From a virus, in IMG/VR virus record IMGVR_UViG_3300027833_000005, positions 1 through 36,065 of that record: DNA of 36,065 nt; one strand, given 5' to 3'. Positions 8,472 through 36,065 of the stretch are shown here, piece by piece (position 1 is the first letter of the stretch; the number at the start of each line of letters is the position of its first letter). Position numbers and translations under genes: made by a program. Under the pieces are notes generated by a model. It did no database searches. It was not told where the DNA came from and saw only the letters and a program-made list of their open reading frames with translations.

Positions 8472-8502
8472 ACCCCCCGCCGAAAGCCGAGGTCGGGGGG
8501 GG
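8472..8502. other. GC-rich hairpin next to terS, candidate packaging or leader structure
   Basis: ACCCCCCG at 8472-8479 can pair with CGGGGGG at 8494-8500, with an inner CC/GG pair. Eight consecutive G occupy 8495-8502. There is no U-tract on either strand, so it is not a standard terminator. It lies 130 bp upstream of terS, within the leader of the late transcript. A packaging (cos/pac) or leader-RNA role is speculative. Confidence 0.35.
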
Positions 8503-8516
8503 TATCAGAATACCCC
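8499..8516. promoter_or_regulatory. 18-bp palindromic operator-like site, copy 1
   Basis: GGGGTATCAGAATACCCC: perfect 7-bp arms (GGGGTAT/ATACCCC) around CAGA. A related 18-mer lies at 8646-8663 (GGGGTACTATGATACCCG). The two bracket the candidate late promoter. Probably sites for a dimeric regulator; the protein is unknown. Confidence 0.55.
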
Positions 8517-8557
8517 AAATCGGGCCAGATCGACGCGAATGACCTATAATCACCATT

Positions 8558-8586
8558 ATGTTAATAAACGGATTCAATGATATCAA
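8558..8586 (-). promoter_or_regulatory. Candidate sigma70-type promoter for the late operon
   Basis: On the leftward strand TTGATA (8586-8581) is followed after exactly 17 nt by TAACAT (8563-8558), matching 5 and 4 of the 6 consensus bases. Transcription would begin near 8551, giving a leader of about 205 nt before terS. The flanking palindromes make regulation by a dimeric protein likely. Not proven; AT-rich DNA gives chance matches. Confidence 0.35.
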
Positions 8587-8645
8587 TGACTTAGCCAAAC
8601 TGGACTTATCATCAGATATGATTTCGCATAATGTTGACTGATTGT

Positions 8646-8663
8646 GGGGTACTATGATACCCG
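8646..8663. promoter_or_regulatory. 18-bp palindromic operator-like site, copy 2
   Basis: GGGGTACTATGATACCCG contains GGGTA/TACCC arms and matches the element at 8499-8516 at 13 of 18 positions, including all outer bases but the last. The centre-to-centre distance is 147 bp, about 14 helical turns, which would suit DNA looping. Confidence 0.5.
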
Positions 8664-9860: not shown

Positions 9861-9928
9861 TCGCAGTTTAAATAATAGCGTGTGACGGCTTTATGCCGAC
9901 ACTCATTTTAACGTAGTGCCTGAATGGG

Positions 9929-9955
9929 TTGACAGTTGCGCGCCAGTGGTATAAT
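9929..9955 (+). promoter_or_regulatory. Consensus promoter with operator arm inside its spacer
   Basis: TTGACA (9929-9934) and TATAAT (9950-9955) both match the sigma70 consensus fully. The spacer is 15 bp, shorter than the optimal 17, and contains the arm CGCGCCAGTG (9939-9948). A protein bound there would block polymerase, or could twist the short spacer into register. The promoter points right, against the surrounding leftward genes, and reads to the terminator at 10001-10024. Confidence 0.65.
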
Positions 9956-9989
9956 TTCCGGAGGAAATTCAGGTTTCAGCACTGGCGCG
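9939..9989. repeat. Inverted pair A of CGCGCCAGTG / CACTGGCGCG
   Basis: Arms at 9939-9948 and 9980-9989, separated by 31 bp. The left arm lies inside the promoter spacer and the right arm within the first 30 nt of the predicted transcript. Confidence 0.85.
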
Positions 9990-10024
9990 TTTGCCCACAC
10001 AGCTCCCATTCGGGGGCTTTTTTT
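9962..10024 (+). ncRNA. Putative short regulatory RNA of about 63 nt
   Basis: Delimited by the consensus promoter at 9929-9955 and the intrinsic terminator at 10001-10024. No start codon lies within it. It contains one CACTGGCGCG arm (9980-9989) and a purine-rich GGAGG close to its 5' end (9960-9964), which may instead lie just at the start site. The 5' end is estimated from the promoter. It would be antisense to the transcript that crosses this region from the right. Confidence 0.4.
10001..10024 (+). terminator. Intrinsic (rho-independent) terminator
   Basis: AGCTCCC (10001-10007), loop ATTC, GGGGGCT (10012-10018), giving a 7-bp GC-rich stem with one G-T pair. It runs into seven T (10018-10024). 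The T-run defines rightward polarity, opposite to the flanking genes. Confidence 0.8.
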
Positions 10025-10043
10025 ATGCCCTATTCAAACGCAA

Positions 10044-10077
10044 GCGCGCCAGTGAAATAACCCACTGGCGCGCTTTT
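10044..10077 (+). terminator. Perfect 12-bp hairpin, inverted pair B, possible terminator
   Basis: AGCGCGCCAGTG (10043-10054) pairs exactly with CACTGGCGCGCT (10063-10074) around an 8-nt AAATAACC loop, and TTTT follows on the plus strand. It is both the tightest of the three inverted pairs and a plausible second rightward terminator; as an operator it would present two abutting half-sites. Confidence 0.6.
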
Positions 10078-10078
10078 A

Positions 10079-10098
10079 TGTCAACGTATTCAGGCACT
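10079..10098 (-). promoter_or_regulatory. Inverted copy of the upstream promoter region
   Basis: TGTCAACGTATTCAGGCACT is the reverse complement of 9915-9934 at 18 of 20 positions. It carries TTGACA on the leftward strand (10084-10079), followed by a CGCGCCAGTG arm as in the rightward promoter. No good -10 lies at the right distance (best TATTTC or TTATTT), so leftward activity is uncertain. Confidence 0.5.
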
Positions 10099-10107
10099 TG
10101 CAAACTT

Positions 10108-10148
10108 GCGCGCCAGTGAACATTTTACCCGTTTCAGCACTGGCGCGC
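10108..10148. repeat. Inverted pair C of CGCGCCAGTG / CACTGGCGCG
   Basis: Arms GCGCGCCAGTG (10108-10118) and CACTGGCGCGC (10138-10148), with 19 bp between. The flank TTTCAG before the right arm is shared with pair A (9974-9979), so pairs A and C look like duplicates. Confidence 0.85.
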
Positions 10149-10168
10149 TTGATTGTTAGGCGGTTAGT

Positions 10169-15120: not shown

Positions 15121-15561
15121 ATGCTTGCTGCAACCTGCCTTGCAATGGCCGTTTACTATGAAGCCCGTTCAGAGCCGCTTGACGGCCAGCGTGCCGTCGC
15201 TGATGTCGTCTTGGCTCGCAAGCATCATGTATCGTACCCCGACACAGTTTGTGCAGTGGTCGCTGAAGACCGTGGCAGCAAGGATTGGGACTGCCAGTTT
15301 AGTTTCATGTGTGACGGCCTTCCAGAGCGACCCACAGGCGCTGCATGGACCACTGCGCAGGCCGTAGCAGCCAAGGCAATCGCTGAACCAGCCATTGTTC
15401 ACGCCACGCATTACCACACAATAAATGTGAAGCCTATCTGGCGGCACGATTTGACCGTAGTCGGCAAGATTGGCTCTCACGTATTCTACACAGATGGCAG
15501 TTGCCATTTGCCAACGTGTTCACTGCGCCCACAAGCGCGACCACAGGGAGACGTGTTATGA
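15121..15561 (+). CDS. SleB/CwlJ-like cell-wall hydrolase (early)
   Basis: 146 residues. MAVYYEARSEPLDGQRAVADVVLAR (read from residue 9; catalytic-type E14) and, later, HATHYHTINVKPIW and IGSHVFYTD follow the Hydrolase_2 (SleB/CwlJ) pattern of lytic transglycosylase-like enzymes. A second protein of this type is the virion protein at 27097-28725. AGGAGG sits 8 nt before the ATG. It is unusual to find such an enzyme at the head of the early unit and apart from the lysis genes. The N-terminus is hydrophobic, but no cleavable signal is clear. Confidence 0.82.
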   Translation: MLAATCLAMAVYYEARSEPLDGQRAVADVVLARKHHVSYPDTVCAVVAEDRGSKDWDCQFSFMCDGLPERPTGAAWTTAQAVAAKAIAEPAIVHATHYHTINVKPIWRHDLTVVGKIGSHVFYTDGSCHLPTCSLRPQARPQGDVL

Positions 15562-15599
15562 TTGAGTGTGAGCAGTGCAACGGAAAATACAAAGAATAA
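15558..15599 (+). CDS. 13-aa CxxC micro-ORF, possible zinc-finger remnant
   Basis: MIECEQCNGKYKE, starting within the stop of the hydrolase (ATGA) after AGGGAG. It closely resembles IIECIECGGTGE of the zinc protein at 16239-16412. It may be a leader or the stump of a duplicated copy. Translation is uncertain. Confidence 0.3.
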   Translation: MIECEQCNGKYKE

Positions 15600-15613
15600 T
15601 TGGGAGCATAATT

Positions 15614-16246
15614 ATGGAAAGCAACGATGACGACTTCAACCTAAAGATTACTGTTAGAAACGGCAGACTTCTCAGGGAAATACGCGCCAAATATGAGTCA
15701 TCCGCAGACATGGCTCGGAAGGGCAACCTGCAAGCCACCCAAGTTAGTGCGCTTGTCACAATGCGAGATAGGCCCATCAATAAGAATGGGCAGTGGCGAG
15801 ACATTGCCCTTGATGTAGCGGGTATGTTGAGCTGCGACCCAGAGTACTTGTGGCCTGAACACATGAAAGAGATCAAGCTAAAGCGGGCGACAGCAGAGAT
15901 GAGTGTAAGCTTGGACACCGTAACGCAGATTTCTAAATACGGCTCAATCGCAGACTTTGAGCGTGACGAAATAGTCGGATCATTAATGGATGGATTAACG
16001 CCAAGGGAAATAAAAGTGATTGGCATGATTTATCACTCTGGCGAAACACTGGATGCGATTGGAAAAGAGATTGGCGTAAGCAAAGAGCGCGTCCGTCAAA
16101 TTGAAGCCAAGGCTATACGAAAGATGCGGGCGCACGCACACAGGAAGAAGTACATATGCCGAAAGCCCCGCACGAGAACCGATTGGGCGCGGATCGGAGA
16201 TCGCGCTGTCCGAGCGGAAGTTCTGTGTGACGTTTTCGATGAATAG
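15614..16246 (+). CDS. HTH plus sigma-70 region 4 fusion regulator
   Basis: 210 residues from ATG 15614 (GGGAG upstream). Residues 12-82 (NGRLLREIRAKYESSADMAR, then VSALVTMRDRPINKNGQWRD, LDVAGMLSCDPEYLWPEHM) look like a lambda-repressor/XRE-type module. Residues 128-173 read LTPREIKVIGMIYHSGETLD then AIGKEIGVSKERVRQIEAKA and IRKMR, the classic sigma-70 region 4 helix-turn-helix that binds the -35 element and the core flap. Sigma region 2 is absent, so it cannot be a complete sigma factor. It may be an activator or appropriator steering host polymerase, for example to the late promoter. The C-terminal 35 residues are Arg-rich. Confidence 0.8.
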   Translation: MESNDDDFNLKITVRNGRLLREIRAKYESSADMARKGNLQATQVSALVTMRDRPINKNGQWRDIALDVAGMLSCDPEYLWPEHMKEIKLKRATAEMSVSLDTVTQISKYGSIADFERDEIVGSLMDGLTPREIKVIGMIYHSGETLDAIGKEIGVSKERVRQIEAKAIRKMRAHAHRKKYICRKPRTRTDWARIGDRAVRAEVLCDVFDE

Positions 16247-16412
16247 GAAGGGAAATGACATAATTGAGTGCATAGAGTGCGGTGGCACTGGCGAGTGCGA
16301 GGTTGATTACTACATGCCGCACAGCAGTGGCCGAGATGTCGGCTTTATTGAAACGAAAATTGAGGAATGTGACTGGTGCGGTGGCACTGGTGAAGTTGAG
16401 GAGGACGAATAA
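16239..16412 (+). CDS. Small zinc-binding protein with two CxxCxGxG motifs, 57 aa
   Basis: 57 residues from ATG 16239: IIECIECGGTGECEVDYY and IEECDWCGGTGEVEEDE. Two DnaJ-type CxxCxGxG half-sites flank a loop (MPHSSGRDVGFIETK), enough to hold one zinc ion. The ATG overlaps the previous stop by 8 bp and lacks a strong ribosome-binding site, so the start could be coupled. Such miniature zinc ribbons occur in phage early operons; partner unknown. Confidence 0.7.
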   Translation: MNRKGNDIIECIECGGTGECEVDYYMPHSSGRDVGFIETKIEECDWCGGTGEVEEDE

Positions 16413-17050
16413 TGGTTAATATAATCGGAACAATCGGAGAATTTAGAAGTGTCAGACGCAACAATAATAACGCAGCGCCTACTGAGGTTGAATGCCGTGA
16501 TGCTGGAGCAGTCGGAGAAAGCGGACAGGCCGAACCTACGACAGCAACTGCAAGCCCAGCAAGCATTGATGGAGATGCTAGAACGCTCCCTCCAGCGGTA
16601 ACAGATGCGGAAAAGGCAGAAGAGAGGCTTGGTATAGCCATGCTGCGCGAGGCTCTGAAAAACCCGCTGATTCCAAACCCGCCCAAGTGGCGACAGGCGA
16701 CGGCGTTTGCCCAAGCCAAACGTGCGCAGCTTGCAAAGGAGCGGAGAGAGCGAATTAAGCTCTACGCAGAGGAAGGCATAATGACTGTGCCGCAAGTCGC
16801 ACAGATTGAGCGTGTAGCCCAAACCACTATTCGGGCTGATTGCCAAGTATTGGGCGTGCGGTTGCGGGTTAGTGAGGTCAAGGTGTCTCCGTATCAGGGT
16901 GAAATCTCAGCCCGACGCGACAGACTTGAGGAAATGGCACCAACGGGAATGACACGCGCTGCTGCGGCTGCTGAACTAGGCGTGTCGGAATCAACGGTTA
17001 GGCGAGACGTGTCGATTATGAGAATAAAATGGAAGGGAAAAGACCAATGA
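16412..17050 (+). CDS. Double helix-turn-helix DNA-binding protein, 212 aa
   Basis: 212 residues. A low-complexity N-terminal third (Thr/Ala/Pro-rich, residues 20-65) leads to a basic helical segment (KWRQATAFAQAKRAQLAKERRE) and two helix-turn-helix units: GIMTVPQVAQIERVAQTTIR (about 122-141) and MTRAAAAAELGVSESTVRRD (about 180-199). GAGGAGG precedes the ATG, which shares one base with the previous stop. A replication-initiation or transcription-control role is plausible. The tandem HTH arrangement suits direct repeats, but no target is known. Confidence 0.75.
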   Translation: MVNIIGTIGEFRSVRRNNNNAAPTEVECRDAGAVGESGQAEPTTATASPASIDGDARTLPPAVTDAEKAEERLGIAMLREALKNPLIPNPPKWRQATAFAQAKRAQLAKERRERIKLYAEEGIMTVPQVAQIERVAQTTIRADCQVLGVRLRVSEVKVSPYQGEISARRDRLEEMAPTGMTRAAAAAELGVSESTVRRDVSIMRIKWKGKDQ

Positions 17051-17244: not shown

Positions 17245-17605
17245 CAAACGTCATCCCATCAAAGAGCAAACCAAACAAATCTGGCGACTATCCAACCAAG
17301 GCATGTCTGGTAAAAATATCACCAAAGCCCTTGGTCTAAATCGTGGGATTGTCAGCGGTGCTATTAATCGCGGGCGTAAATCAGGAAGCTGCAATAAGAA
17401 GGTGAGAACAAAAACCACCGCCCGAAACAAAAGCCCACTGACTTATGGCTATATTGGTCAAGTCATTGATGCACTGTCAGTTGACCAACTTGATTGGTTG
17501 TTTGTTGAGAGCGAGACCGTAGGGTACAACACATGCGCGGAGTACATTGCTGAACTTGTGCAGGACGCCTATGAAGAAGCAATGGCAAAGGAAACCAACC
17601 AATGA
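17234..17605 (+). CDS. GcrA-like helix-turn-helix protein, 123 aa
   Basis: 123 residues. QTKQIWRLSNQGMSGKNITK followed by ALGLNRGIVSGAINRGRKSG (residues about 11-50) matches the layout of the GcrA DNA-binding domain of Alphaproteobacteria (W..G.S...IA..LG..RN.V.G...R.G). The rest is a basic linker and an acidic helical C-terminus (LDWLFVESETVGYNTCAEYIAE, read in parts). It starts inside the preceding gene. Acting on host cell-cycle or phage promoters is inference; the resemblance supports an alphaproteobacterial host. Confidence 0.7.
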   Translation: MANNKRHPIKEQTKQIWRLSNQGMSGKNITKALGLNRGIVSGAINRGRKSGSCNKKVRTKTTARNKSPLTYGYIGQVIDALSVDQLDWLFVESETVGYNTCAEYIAELVQDAYEEAMAKETNQ

Positions 17606-17886
17606 ACAGAGATGAAATACTGCAAACCGCAGAGAACTGCATCACAGTGGACCGCGCAGCAACTCACGGCGACGCTGAGGATAGCTTCCAAACCATAGCC
17701 GACGCTTGGTCGTGGTGGCTGTCAAATCGTAGCATCCCAGAAAGCCCACTTGAATCCAGCGATGTCGCAATAATGATGTCGCTGTTTAAGATTTCTCGCA
17801 TTGCTGGCAACGCCCAGCACGAAGACAATTACATTGATTTAGCTGGTTACGCCGCGTTGGCTGGCGAAATATCAACGGTGGAATAA
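17602..17886 (+). CDS. DUF6378-like protein, 94 aa
   Basis: 94 residues. RAATHGDAEDSFQTIADAWS, then SSDVAIMMSLFKISRIAG and YIDLAGYAALAGEI match the DUF6378-type pattern (THG...F..IA..W, DVA.MM.L.KI.R, D..GYAALAGE) seen in many phages. The family's biochemical role is unknown; its conserved Asp/His residues hint at nucleotide binding. It overlaps the previous stop by 4 bp and converges on the late operon's last gene, the two overlapping by 15 bp. Confidence 0.78.
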   Translation: MNRDEILQTAENCITVDRAATHGDAEDSFQTIADAWSWWLSNRSIPESPLESSDVAIMMSLFKISRIAGNAQHEDNYIDLAGYAALAGEISTVE

Positions 17887-33843: not shown

Positions 33844-35301
33844 TTATGTTTTTACTACTAAACTTGTAGCAGATATTGCGGTCCCTGCAAAGACACTTGG
33901 GTCGGCAGCGGTCTCTCCTATCGTCCCGTCTGTCTGAACGTAATAACTCTGCCCTGCCGTGAGGCCAGACTGGTTTGTGCTGAGTGAGCCGATGATGTCT
34001 ACCGTGGCGCTGCTACCGTCTGCGTATGTGCCGCCAGTAGAGATGCCGATGTAGTTCTCGGAGGTGAGGTTTGTGGATGTGTAGGCGGTCTGCCTAACAA
34101 TTGCAGTACCTTTATTTGTGCTTGCAACTGGAGCATATGAAACAACAGAAACCTTTTCATTCATGTCGTAAGCCATTGATGTATAATTACTAGCACCAGT
34201 GCTATCCAAAATAGTATCAGAGCCAAAACTTACAGTAGTTCCACTAATCTCTCCCTCTTGCAGAGTTAAATAGCTTGAGTTTCCAGCGTCTGAATAGACA
34301 ATAACCACTTTGTTTGCGGCAGAGTTATAAACAATTCTTAAATAATCTGATTGATTGGCATTAAAAACAGTTTTTGACCCAAACGAAATAGATGTTCCAG
34401 AAACAGTTCCGACTATGGCTGAACCTTGATAACCACCACTGTAACTGTTGTACGCTATAACTACTTTATTGCTGACACTATCATAAGCAGGTATGTTGTA
34501 AATATTAGTGGCGCTGCTATCGTATACGACCGCACTGCCAAACGAAATAGATGTTCCACTTACTGTTCCTACTACAGCTGTGCCTTTTTGAGAGTTACCA
34601 TTGTCATTATAGGCAACCACTACCTTATTATTTAAGCTATCAAAAGTAATGCCGACATGATCTGATCTTGCACTCTCGAACACAACAGGTGAGCCAAAGC
34701 TAATAGATGTTCCAGAGACAGTGCCAACTACTGCCGTACCATAATTTGAGTTACCAGCATCTCTGTATGCAATTACAACTTTGTTGTTAGAACTGTCAAA
34801 TGTAGCCGCTGTATAAATTGTGCCTCCCGCTTCAAAAACCACTGGCGTTCCGAAGCTAATAGATGTTCCAGAAACATTCCCAACTACTGCCGTCCCCTTC
34901 CCAGCGGTGGCATTGTCATAGTAAGCAATAACAACCTTGTTTTCGTTGCTATCAAATGTTGCCGTTACATAATAAATAGACGCTGAGTTAAAAACTACTG
35001 GGGAACCGAAACTAATAGATGTCCCTGAGACAGTGCCGACTACTGCTGTGCCGTGTCCAGAATTACCCCCATCACTATAAGCAAATACAACTTTATTACT
35101 ACTGCTATCATAGGCAGCAGCCTGCCAAGTTGTTTGACCTGTTTCGTAAACAGTTTCAGACCCAATAGCCGAGCTTACAGAGGTTGAAGAAACAACACTC
35201 ACAGTACCGTCAGCATTCACAACAACAGGCTTACCATTCGGCAGAGTACCAGAAGCCTTGGCCCTATGCGTACCCTCTTTTAACTCTGGGATAATTCTCA
35301 T
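33844..35301 (-). CDS. Seven-repeat tail protein C (putative beta-propeller)
   Basis: 485 residues; third member of the family at 815-35305 (A) and 1088-2524 (B). Head MRIIPELKEGTHRAKASGTL, then NGKPVVVNADGTVSVV, seven units of about 50 residues (for example SPVVFNSASIYYVTATFDSN, then ENKVVIAYYD), with linkers such as AVVGTVSGTSISFG. The tail module ends QSYYVQTDGTIGETAADPSV, FAGTAISATSLVVKT. Seven units again suggest a seven-bladed propeller. Units 2-5 are more alike here than in B, suggesting recent internal repeat exchange. Probable tail fibre or adhesin. Confidence 0.88.
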   Translation of the reverse strand: MRIIPELKEGTHRAKASGTLPNGKPVVVNADGTVSVVSSTSVSSAIGSETVYETGQTTWQAAAYDSSSNKVVFAYSDGGNSGHGTAVVGTVSGTSISFGSPVVFNSASIYYVTATFDSNENKVVIAYYDNATAGKGTAVVGNVSGTSISFGTPVVFEAGGTIYTAATFDSSNNKVVIAYRDAGNSNYGTAVVGTVSGTSISFGSPVVFESARSDHVGITFDSLNNKVVVAYNDNGNSQKGTAVVGTVSGTSISFGSAVVYDSSATNIYNIPAYDSVSNKVVIAYNSYSGGYQGSAIVGTVSGTSISFGSKTVFNANQSDYLRIVYNSAANKVVIVYSDAGNSSYLTLQEGEISGTTVSFGSDTILDSTGASNYTSMAYDMNEKVSVVSYAPVASTNKGTAIVRQTAYTSTNLTSENYIGISTGGTYADGSSATVDIIGSLSTNQSGLTAGQSYYVQTDGTIGETAADPSVFAGTAISATSLVVKT

Positions 35302-35304
35302 GGT

Positions 35305-36065
35305 CTAGCCTTTCACGATCATCTTGGTTGCCGATATGGCTGTGCCAGCAAAGACACTTGGGTCTGCTGGCGTGGTGCCGAGTGTTCCGTCTGTCTGGAC
35401 GTAGTAGCTCTGACCCGCAGTCAAACCTGATTGCCTGTCGTTTATCGCACCTTGCACATCAATGGTGGCCCCAGCAGTGTCAGGGTAGCCGTTGCTGGAT
35501 AGGCCGATGTAGTTCTCTGAGGTGAGGTTGGGTATCGAACCCGGCGGCTGCACCACAATAGATGTGCCGTAACTAGAGTTTCCAGCGTCTTGATATGCTA
35601 TGACAACTTTATTAGAGTTACTATCAAAGGAAGATGTAATGTAATTAGTTGCATCTCCCTCAAATACCGTTGGACTCGTAAAACTTACACTTGTTCCGCT
35701 AACCGTGCCTGTTACAAAAGTGCCTTTATTGGAGTTGCTTTCATCTCTGTAGGAAACAACAACTGTTCCAGTATTGCTATCAAAAGTATTAGAAATTGAG
35801 GTAATGGTAGCAGACGCATAAGACACAGCAGTTCCGAAGCTGATACTGGTTCCAGACACGGTGCCGACGATAGCTTTACCATACCATCCTCCAGAGTAGA
35901 TACGCCAAGCTACAACAATTTTGTTGTTAATGCTGTCAAATGCGGTTGAAGTCCATTCAGCATAAATATCTGTATCAAAAGTAGTTATTGATCCAAATGA
36001 TATGGATGTACCAGACACAGTGCCAACGATAGATTTCCCGTAGTTTCCAACCTGAGCAGATATAA
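35305..36065 (-). CDS. Seven-repeat tail protein A, C-terminal part (start at 815)
   Basis: C-terminal part of the protein that starts at 815; bases 35939-36065 duplicate 1-127. It carries the last repeats, then a tail module shared with both paralogues: NLTSENYIGLSSNG, QSGLTAGQSYYVQTDGTLG, DPSVFAGTAISATKMIVKG. This module recurs at the C-terminus of all three copies and may serve trimerisation or attachment (inference). The TAG stop at 35305-35307 is 3 nt before the ATG of the next paralogue at 35301, so the genes are tightly co-transcribed. Total length 482 residues, against 478 and 485 for the paralogues. Confidence 0.85.
   Translation of the reverse strand, partial: ISAQVGNYGKSIVGTVSGTSISFGSITTFDTDIYAEWTSTAFDSINNKIVVAWRIYSGGWYGKAIVGTVSGTSISFGTAVSYASATITSISNTFDSNTGTVVVSYRDESNSNKGTFVTGTVSGTSVSFTSPTVFEGDATNYITSSFDSNSNKVVIAYQDAGNSSYGTSIVVQPPGSIPNLTSENYIGLSSNGYPDTAGATIDVQGAINDRQSGLTAGQSYYVQTDGTLGTTPADPSVFAGTAISATKMIVKG
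35939..36065. repeat. Terminal direct repeat, right copy (assembly circle overlap)
   Basis: Exact second copy of bases 1-127. Joining the two copies restores one uninterrupted leftward reading frame of 483 codons including the stop, from 815 through 1/35938 to 35305. This supports circular closure. Confidence 0.95.

Follow-up and report, generated by a model that had tools for sequence, protein, structure and literature searches.

An exchangeable phage gene joining a lambda-repressor-like domain to sigma-70 region 4, and its possible role in re-targeting transcription

A 210-residue protein of a small marine phage joins an XRE (lambda-repressor-like) domain to sigma-70 region 4 in a single chain. 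Its gene is a mobile, horizontally exchanged accessory with the presence/absence pattern of a moron or cargo gene, because near-identical phages have empty sites, an otherwise different phage shares the module, and the corresponding slot in a second phage group is variably occupied. The reading that we prefer, tentatively and with slightly less than even confidence, is that the protein is an accessory regulator of transcription whose XRE domain selects the target and whose region 4 works at the -35 element or the beta-flap of host RNA polymerase, giving activation by re-targeting.

Results

The gene and its genome

The window, by which we mean the whole stretch of DNA analysed, is a viral record of 36,065 bases. 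Positions 1-127 are repeated exactly at 35939-36065, and this 127-bp terminal direct repeat is probably the assembly overlap of a circular genome; the identical ends therefore suggest a circular assembly and a near-complete genome. The gene content (terminase, portal, scaffold, head protein, ejection proteins, helicase-primase, exonuclease, single-strand-binding protein, RusA and amidase) is that of a small tailed phage. No RNA polymerase gene is annotated in the 36 kb genome, in agreement with the first-pass annotation. At the junction of the circle, a degenerate array of ~156-bp (52-aa) repeats spans adjacent genes (37-2484 and 34032-36039) and is probably tail-fibre-like. Separately, the gene at 17602-17886 (+) carries a PHROGs phosphofructokinase label that looks misleading, the Pfam match being to DUF6378 (E=2e-30).

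The open reading frame of interest starts at an ATG preceded by an SD-like GGGAG. A full-length relative in contig L001 is 94% identical, with 5, 7 and 31 differing sites at codon positions 1, 2 and 3, respectively (31 of 43 nucleotide differences at third positions), and the ATG and RBS are common to both; we therefore regard 15614-16246 as a real gene. Its features are as follows:

15614..16246, + strand: XRE-sigma region 4 chimera CDS, 210 aa (ATG at 15614, upstream GGGAG, stop at 16246; third-codon-position bias relative to L001)
15635..15907, + strand: XRE / lambda-repressor-like domain, residues 8-98 (AF2 fold, Foldseek/VIA, relatives' profiles)
15731..15742, + strand: start of the predicted XRE recognition helix, residues 40-43 (hypervariable in close relatives)
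15983..16132, + strand: sigma-70 region 4, residues 124-173 (PF04545, RpoD alignments, conserved -35 contacts)
16133..16207, + strand: hypervariable linker, residues 174-198 (pLDDT <50 from 181)
16208..16243, + strand: C-terminal hydrophobic/acidic tip (likeness to the last helix of RpoD in sequence only)

Domain architecture

Residues 124-173 match Sigma70_r4 (PF04545, E=2.3e-16, 59.5 bits against a cut-off of 24.1), a phmmer search with the chimera returns region 4 of E. coli and other RpoD proteins, and direct alignment places the segment at about 547-600 of E. coli RpoD. The helix-turn-helix motif that the first-pass annotation had given for this part, GVSKERVRQIEAKAIRKMR, is exact, and region 2 is absent as it had claimed, with no match to Sigma70_r2 (PF04542) in the chimera protein or anywhere in the 36 kb genome. 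The chimera is thus not a complete sigma factor, in which region 2 provides -10 recognition and promoter opening, and because it has no region 2 it would not start transcription alone. Relative to RpoD/SigA it also lacks regions 1 and 3, has a 4-residue deletion in the turn between 4.1 and 4.2 and an isoleucine in place of R562, and carries a long linker before its tip.

The N-terminus of the window's protein is by itself below threshold in Pfam (HTH_35, E=0.012, 16.1 bits against a cut-off of 25); among the N-termini of its relatives HTH_35 is matched in 12 of 24, HTH_31 with E-values down to 1e-9, and HTH_3 to 2e-7. A PDB search with the whole model gave region 4 only, and the N-domain was therefore folded separately. 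The AlphaFold2 model of residues 1-105 has a mean pLDDT of 91.8, and its nearest PDB folds are 434 Cro, P22 C2, SinR and ImmR, with Z of ~8 over 62-65 residues (ImmR 8.1, P22 C2 8.0, 434 Cro 7.7). Residues 8-98 are predicted to form a multi-helix XRE fold with the helix-turn-helix at helices 2-3 and a bracketing beta strand on either side (8-13 and 93-98). The proposal that an XRE-like module is fused to region 4 thus holds, residues 1-90 being modelled as lambda-repressor-like rather than as a different fold.

This N-terminal fold is like that of lambda CI, P22 C2 and 434 Cro, but the two bracketing strands are additional, the C-terminal oligomerisation or cleavage domain of the lambda CI class is missing, and sigma region 4 stands in place of the effector domain. 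The N-domain of lambda CI and sigma region 4 are seen together on DNA in PDB 1rio, although there they act in trans, whereas the chimera has both in one chain.

Beyond region 4, the linker varies in both sequence and length among relatives, and the tip (VRAEVLCDVFDE) has no predicted helix and a model pLDDT of <50. A D-[LIV]-[LF]-x-[DE] terminus is nevertheless kept in 12 of the 13 long-tailed relatives, which are not independent of one another, compared with at most 1 of 13 in 20,000 shuffles. The last 12 residues of the chimera resemble RpoD C-termini (P ~1e-4) in a comparison with E. coli RpoD and a second RpoD. The last helix of sigma70 touches the beta-flap (PMC2988021). Hydrophobic/acidic C-terminal tips are also found in T4 gp55 and gp33, where they bind the sliding clamp, and that of gp55 likewise lies behind a divergent linker (PMC2988020); by analogy, sliding-clamp binding is a possible alternative role for the chimera tip.

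Conservation of the two reading helices

Using the lists of -35 and core contacts of E. coli sigma70 in PMC4943231, we compared region 4 across the family (24 rows, one of which, L018, is wrongly cut and lowers the figures slightly). The -35 contacts in helix H4 are the best-kept part of region 4, with 84% identity to the E. coli protein; for core-binding positions the figures are 47% identity and 87% similarity, and for the remainder 36% and 54%. As judged from these alignments, both functional surfaces of region 4, for the -35 element and for core, appear to be kept above background family-wide. In the window's protein six of the eight H4 contacts are identical (E585, R586, R588, Q589, K593 and R596) and the other two are conservative. 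Among its beta-flap positions E555 and G577 are kept, F563Y and L598M are conservative, and R562I and I565S are changed; throughout the window's subgroup R562 is replaced by isoleucine and I565 is replaced beside the 4-residue deletion. With these two substitutions, docking to the flap may be weaker in this subgroup. Engagement of polymerase or of a -35 element by the chimera, as the first-pass annotation had envisaged, is plausible.

The two reading helices behave differently among 20 close relatives: that of the XRE domain is hypervariable, whereas its counterpart in region 4, which reads the -35 element, hardly changes. Residues 40-43 vary more than any other part of the XRE domain (mean entropy 1.9 bits; P=0.0001 by permutation), and there is almost no variation at the -35-reading positions of region 4 (readout entropy 0.30 bits, P=0.016).

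A possible but doubtful explanation is that both helix-turn-helix domains bind DNA only, such that region 4, placed on a -35 hexamer beside an XRE operator, would exclude sigma70 and give repression or superinfection immunity at a promoter of the phage itself, of the host, or of a competitor. It would account for H4 being better kept than the rest of region 4, for the two core-binding residues lost in the window's subgroup, and for a variable XRE readout like that of immunity-specific repressors; an accessory, moron-like distribution also suits immunity genes. Such a repressor, however, has no need of a conserved detached tip or of core-binding similarity across the family, and the chimera's own locus offers neither an operator nor a promoter.

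Another explanation is an anti-sigma-type host takeover, in which a free region 4 would compete with that of host sigma70 for the beta-flap and depress -35-dependent transcription, the XRE domain being a mere tether or dimeriser. There are precedents in AsiA, gp39 and P7, all of which displace sigma region 4 (PMC7403470), and the early-gene neighbourhood of the relatives and the accessory distribution are compatible with it. We nevertheless judge it improbable, in that neither a fixed -35 readout nor a varying XRE readout would be needed, and the flap residues are partly lost in the window's own subgroup.

The insertion locus

The neighbouring helix-turn-helix protein served as bait to collect 23 sibling contigs, and comparison with these defines the following features:

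15584..16259, + strand: 676-bp insert with the chimera gene (empty sites in L235, L236, L237 and L255)
15558..15599, + strand: truncated zinc-knuckle ORF remnant (MIECEQCNGKYKE*), compared with the intact sibling ORF MIECEQCNGAGECEVDYY...
16239..16412, + strand: restored zinc-knuckle (CxxC) ORF, overlapping the end of the chimera gene (weak DnaJ_CXXCXGXG)
16412..17050, + strand: neighbouring HTH protein, conserved in all siblings and L001

In the four siblings with an empty site, position 15583 is joined directly to 16260, and the flanks are mostly 91-95% identical to the window (one L237 flank is 88%). The insert splits the zinc-knuckle ORF, with a 13-residue stub upstream and the restored ORF downstream, and in a further sibling, L112, the slot holds two unrelated ORFs. 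Neither the chimera N-domain nor region 4 was found above cut-off in the 23 sibling records, which are mostly fragments with two of 31-32 kb; the N-domain search recovered the chimera in known carriers as a positive control. The gene is therefore dispensable at this locus in near-identical phages. Conversely, L001/L066, otherwise a different phage, shares 15602-16423 at 91% nucleotide identity. Only ~30 bp separate the start of the insert from the ATG, and 13 bp the stop from its end; because there is so little space upstream, the gene would have no promoter of its own, and the promoter and terminator pair typical of morons was not found around it.

These data bear directly on the role that the first-pass annotation had assigned to the chimera, as the essential early-to-late switch of the window phage. 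Its regulatory domains, in a 36 kb genome with neither an RNA polymerase nor a region 2 gene, had made this attractive, but it is unlikely because the gene is missing from near-identical siblings, with empty sites in four and no copy in the 23 records; these being mostly fragments, there is a small chance of a copy elsewhere in those genomes. Moreover, the regions proposed as its targets (8499-8663 and 9929-10148) are both intact in L112, where other genes occupy the slot, and we now regard the switch as highly improbable.

The second group consists of 57-kb phages with a Pol I-type DNA polymerase, whose helicases are 93-100% identical between contigs. Ten contigs carry the chimera gene, and L271, L276, L277, L278, L303 and L327 are among those without it downstream; these have either nothing in the slot or, in its place, an HNH endonuclease or a different ORF. 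In L303 (1237-1812) the occupant is an HNH endonuclease with an AP2-like domain, and near-identical phages carry the chimera there, which may make the slot a hot spot for homing or recombination. A small CxxC zinc gene adjoins the slot in both phage groups.

Candidate target sites

Both proposed target regions are conserved in siblings L111, L112 and L113. Upstream of the terminase small subunit gene lie two GGGTA...TACCC palindromes ~147 bp apart (8499-8516 and 8647-8662), a pair that is operator-like in sequence; as chimera targets they were rejected, being kept in these three siblings regardless. The stretch at 9915-10148, also conserved in siblings, contains facing copies of AGTGCCTGAATNNGTTGACA at 9915-9934 (+) and 10079-10098 (-), with a chance expectation of 0.03, and six GCGCGCCAGTG half-sites, one with 1 mismatch, and has the appearance of a dense regulatory or origin-like region. 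The GCGCGCCAGTG palindromes and the AGTGCCTGAATNNGTTGACA composite are not supported as chimera targets either, since they are intact in L112 without the gene at the locus and are missing (allowing <=2 mismatches) from the chimera-bearing relatives L066, L067, L071, L072 and L079. A 14-mer, GCCTAACAATCAAG, at 10148-10161 and in L067 and L001, was rejected as an operator: its 17-nt form occurs mostly in contigs whose available sequence shows no chimera, and sits in another shared leader or inside genes. No operator could be assigned to the chimera, the presence of palindromes nearby being unrelated to that of the gene.

Two RNA-level elements were also observed. A candidate small RNA (9929-10024, +) has a TTGACA-15-TATAAT promoter as well as an intrinsic terminator (10001-10018) and is kept in L111, L112 and L113; in L111 and L113 the spacer is 17 with TAAAAT, and the 5' stem AATTTCC/GGAAATT is changed to AATCTC/GAGATT. 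Its fold is better supported in L111 (z -3.2) than in the window, where support is weak (z -0.7), and it has no Rfam match. Contigs L095, L097, L099, L101, L104, L105 and L107 have a common leader immediately before start codons, made up of a AAAGGGGTAA...TTACCCCTTTA hairpin and then GTGCCTAACAATCAAGA; it is possibly a conserved 5' leader element.

Distribution of the family

Environmental viral contigs yielded some 33 full-length relatives, and for several of these the neighbours are early or replication genes (DNA polymerase, primase, helicase, exonuclease and SSB). The full architecture was found in none of 50,697 isolate phage records and, with a relative as the query, in none of 72,556 plasmids; those matches that were examined proved to be complete RpoD-type sigma factors or a long plasmid sigma factor. 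Run against genome contigs through two narrow search patterns, which leave room for bacterial copies, the family profile matched only region 4 of sigma factors. A BFVD entry from an uncultured marine virus, A0A0F7L6V6, aligns over 193 columns, nearly the whole length, at 26% identity and is apparently a member of the family by sequence, although its automatic name, 'Sigma-70 region 3 domain protein', misses the XRE domain. We found no description of the XRE-region 4 architecture in the open-access papers that we searched, and the gene looks unstudied.

Discussion

Our preferred reading, that of an XRE-targeted accessory regulator working through region 4, is supported by the fixed -35 readout, the variable XRE readout, the 87% core similarity, the tip, the early-gene neighbours and the mobility of the gene; we count against it the R562I and I565 changes in the window's subgroup and the lack of an assignable operator. 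The protein would be an auxiliary regulator acting in trans, whose XRE domain picks an operator differing from phage to phage and whose region 4, with the detached C-terminal tip, contacts a -35 element, the beta-flap of the host's RNA polymerase, or both. In this way it could steer the sigma70 holoenzyme of the host, or adjust its activity, at selected promoters, as a one-protein analogue of sigma appropriation. Our data show the domain composition, the XRE fold, the pattern of conservation, the mobility of the gene and its dispensability at the locus; that the protein binds DNA, that it docks on the flap and in which direction it acts we infer, slightly favouring activation over blocking.

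The proposed mode is similar to that of T4 AsiA/MotA, in which a DNA-binding domain and a sigma4-side function re-target host polymerase, but AsiA and MotA are separate proteins with no sequence relationship to the chimera found, and PHROGs scans of the window's main genes gave no AsiA/MotA annotation. T4 gp33 mimics sigma4 at the beta-flap but, unlike the proposed action of the chimera, does not read DNA sequence, and a gp55-like region 2 protein of the T4 late system was not found in the window genome. Known phage regulators at the sigma region 4 or flap site (AsiA, gp39, P7 and gp33) are separate small proteins; in the chimera a repressor-type and a sigma4 domain share a single exchangeable gene, with one reading helix changing fast and the other near-fixed.

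A broader and rather unlikely proposal is that the family constitutes a mobile, re-targetable sigma4, a one-gene cassette whose repressor domain diversifies freely and guides a conserved region 4 to sites particular to each phage. If true, a phage could re-specify host RNA polymerase through acquiring one gene. Sibling phages with and without the chimera gene provide a ready comparison, and if region 4 engages host polymerase, the family would be a simple natural system for the evolution of promoter targeting.
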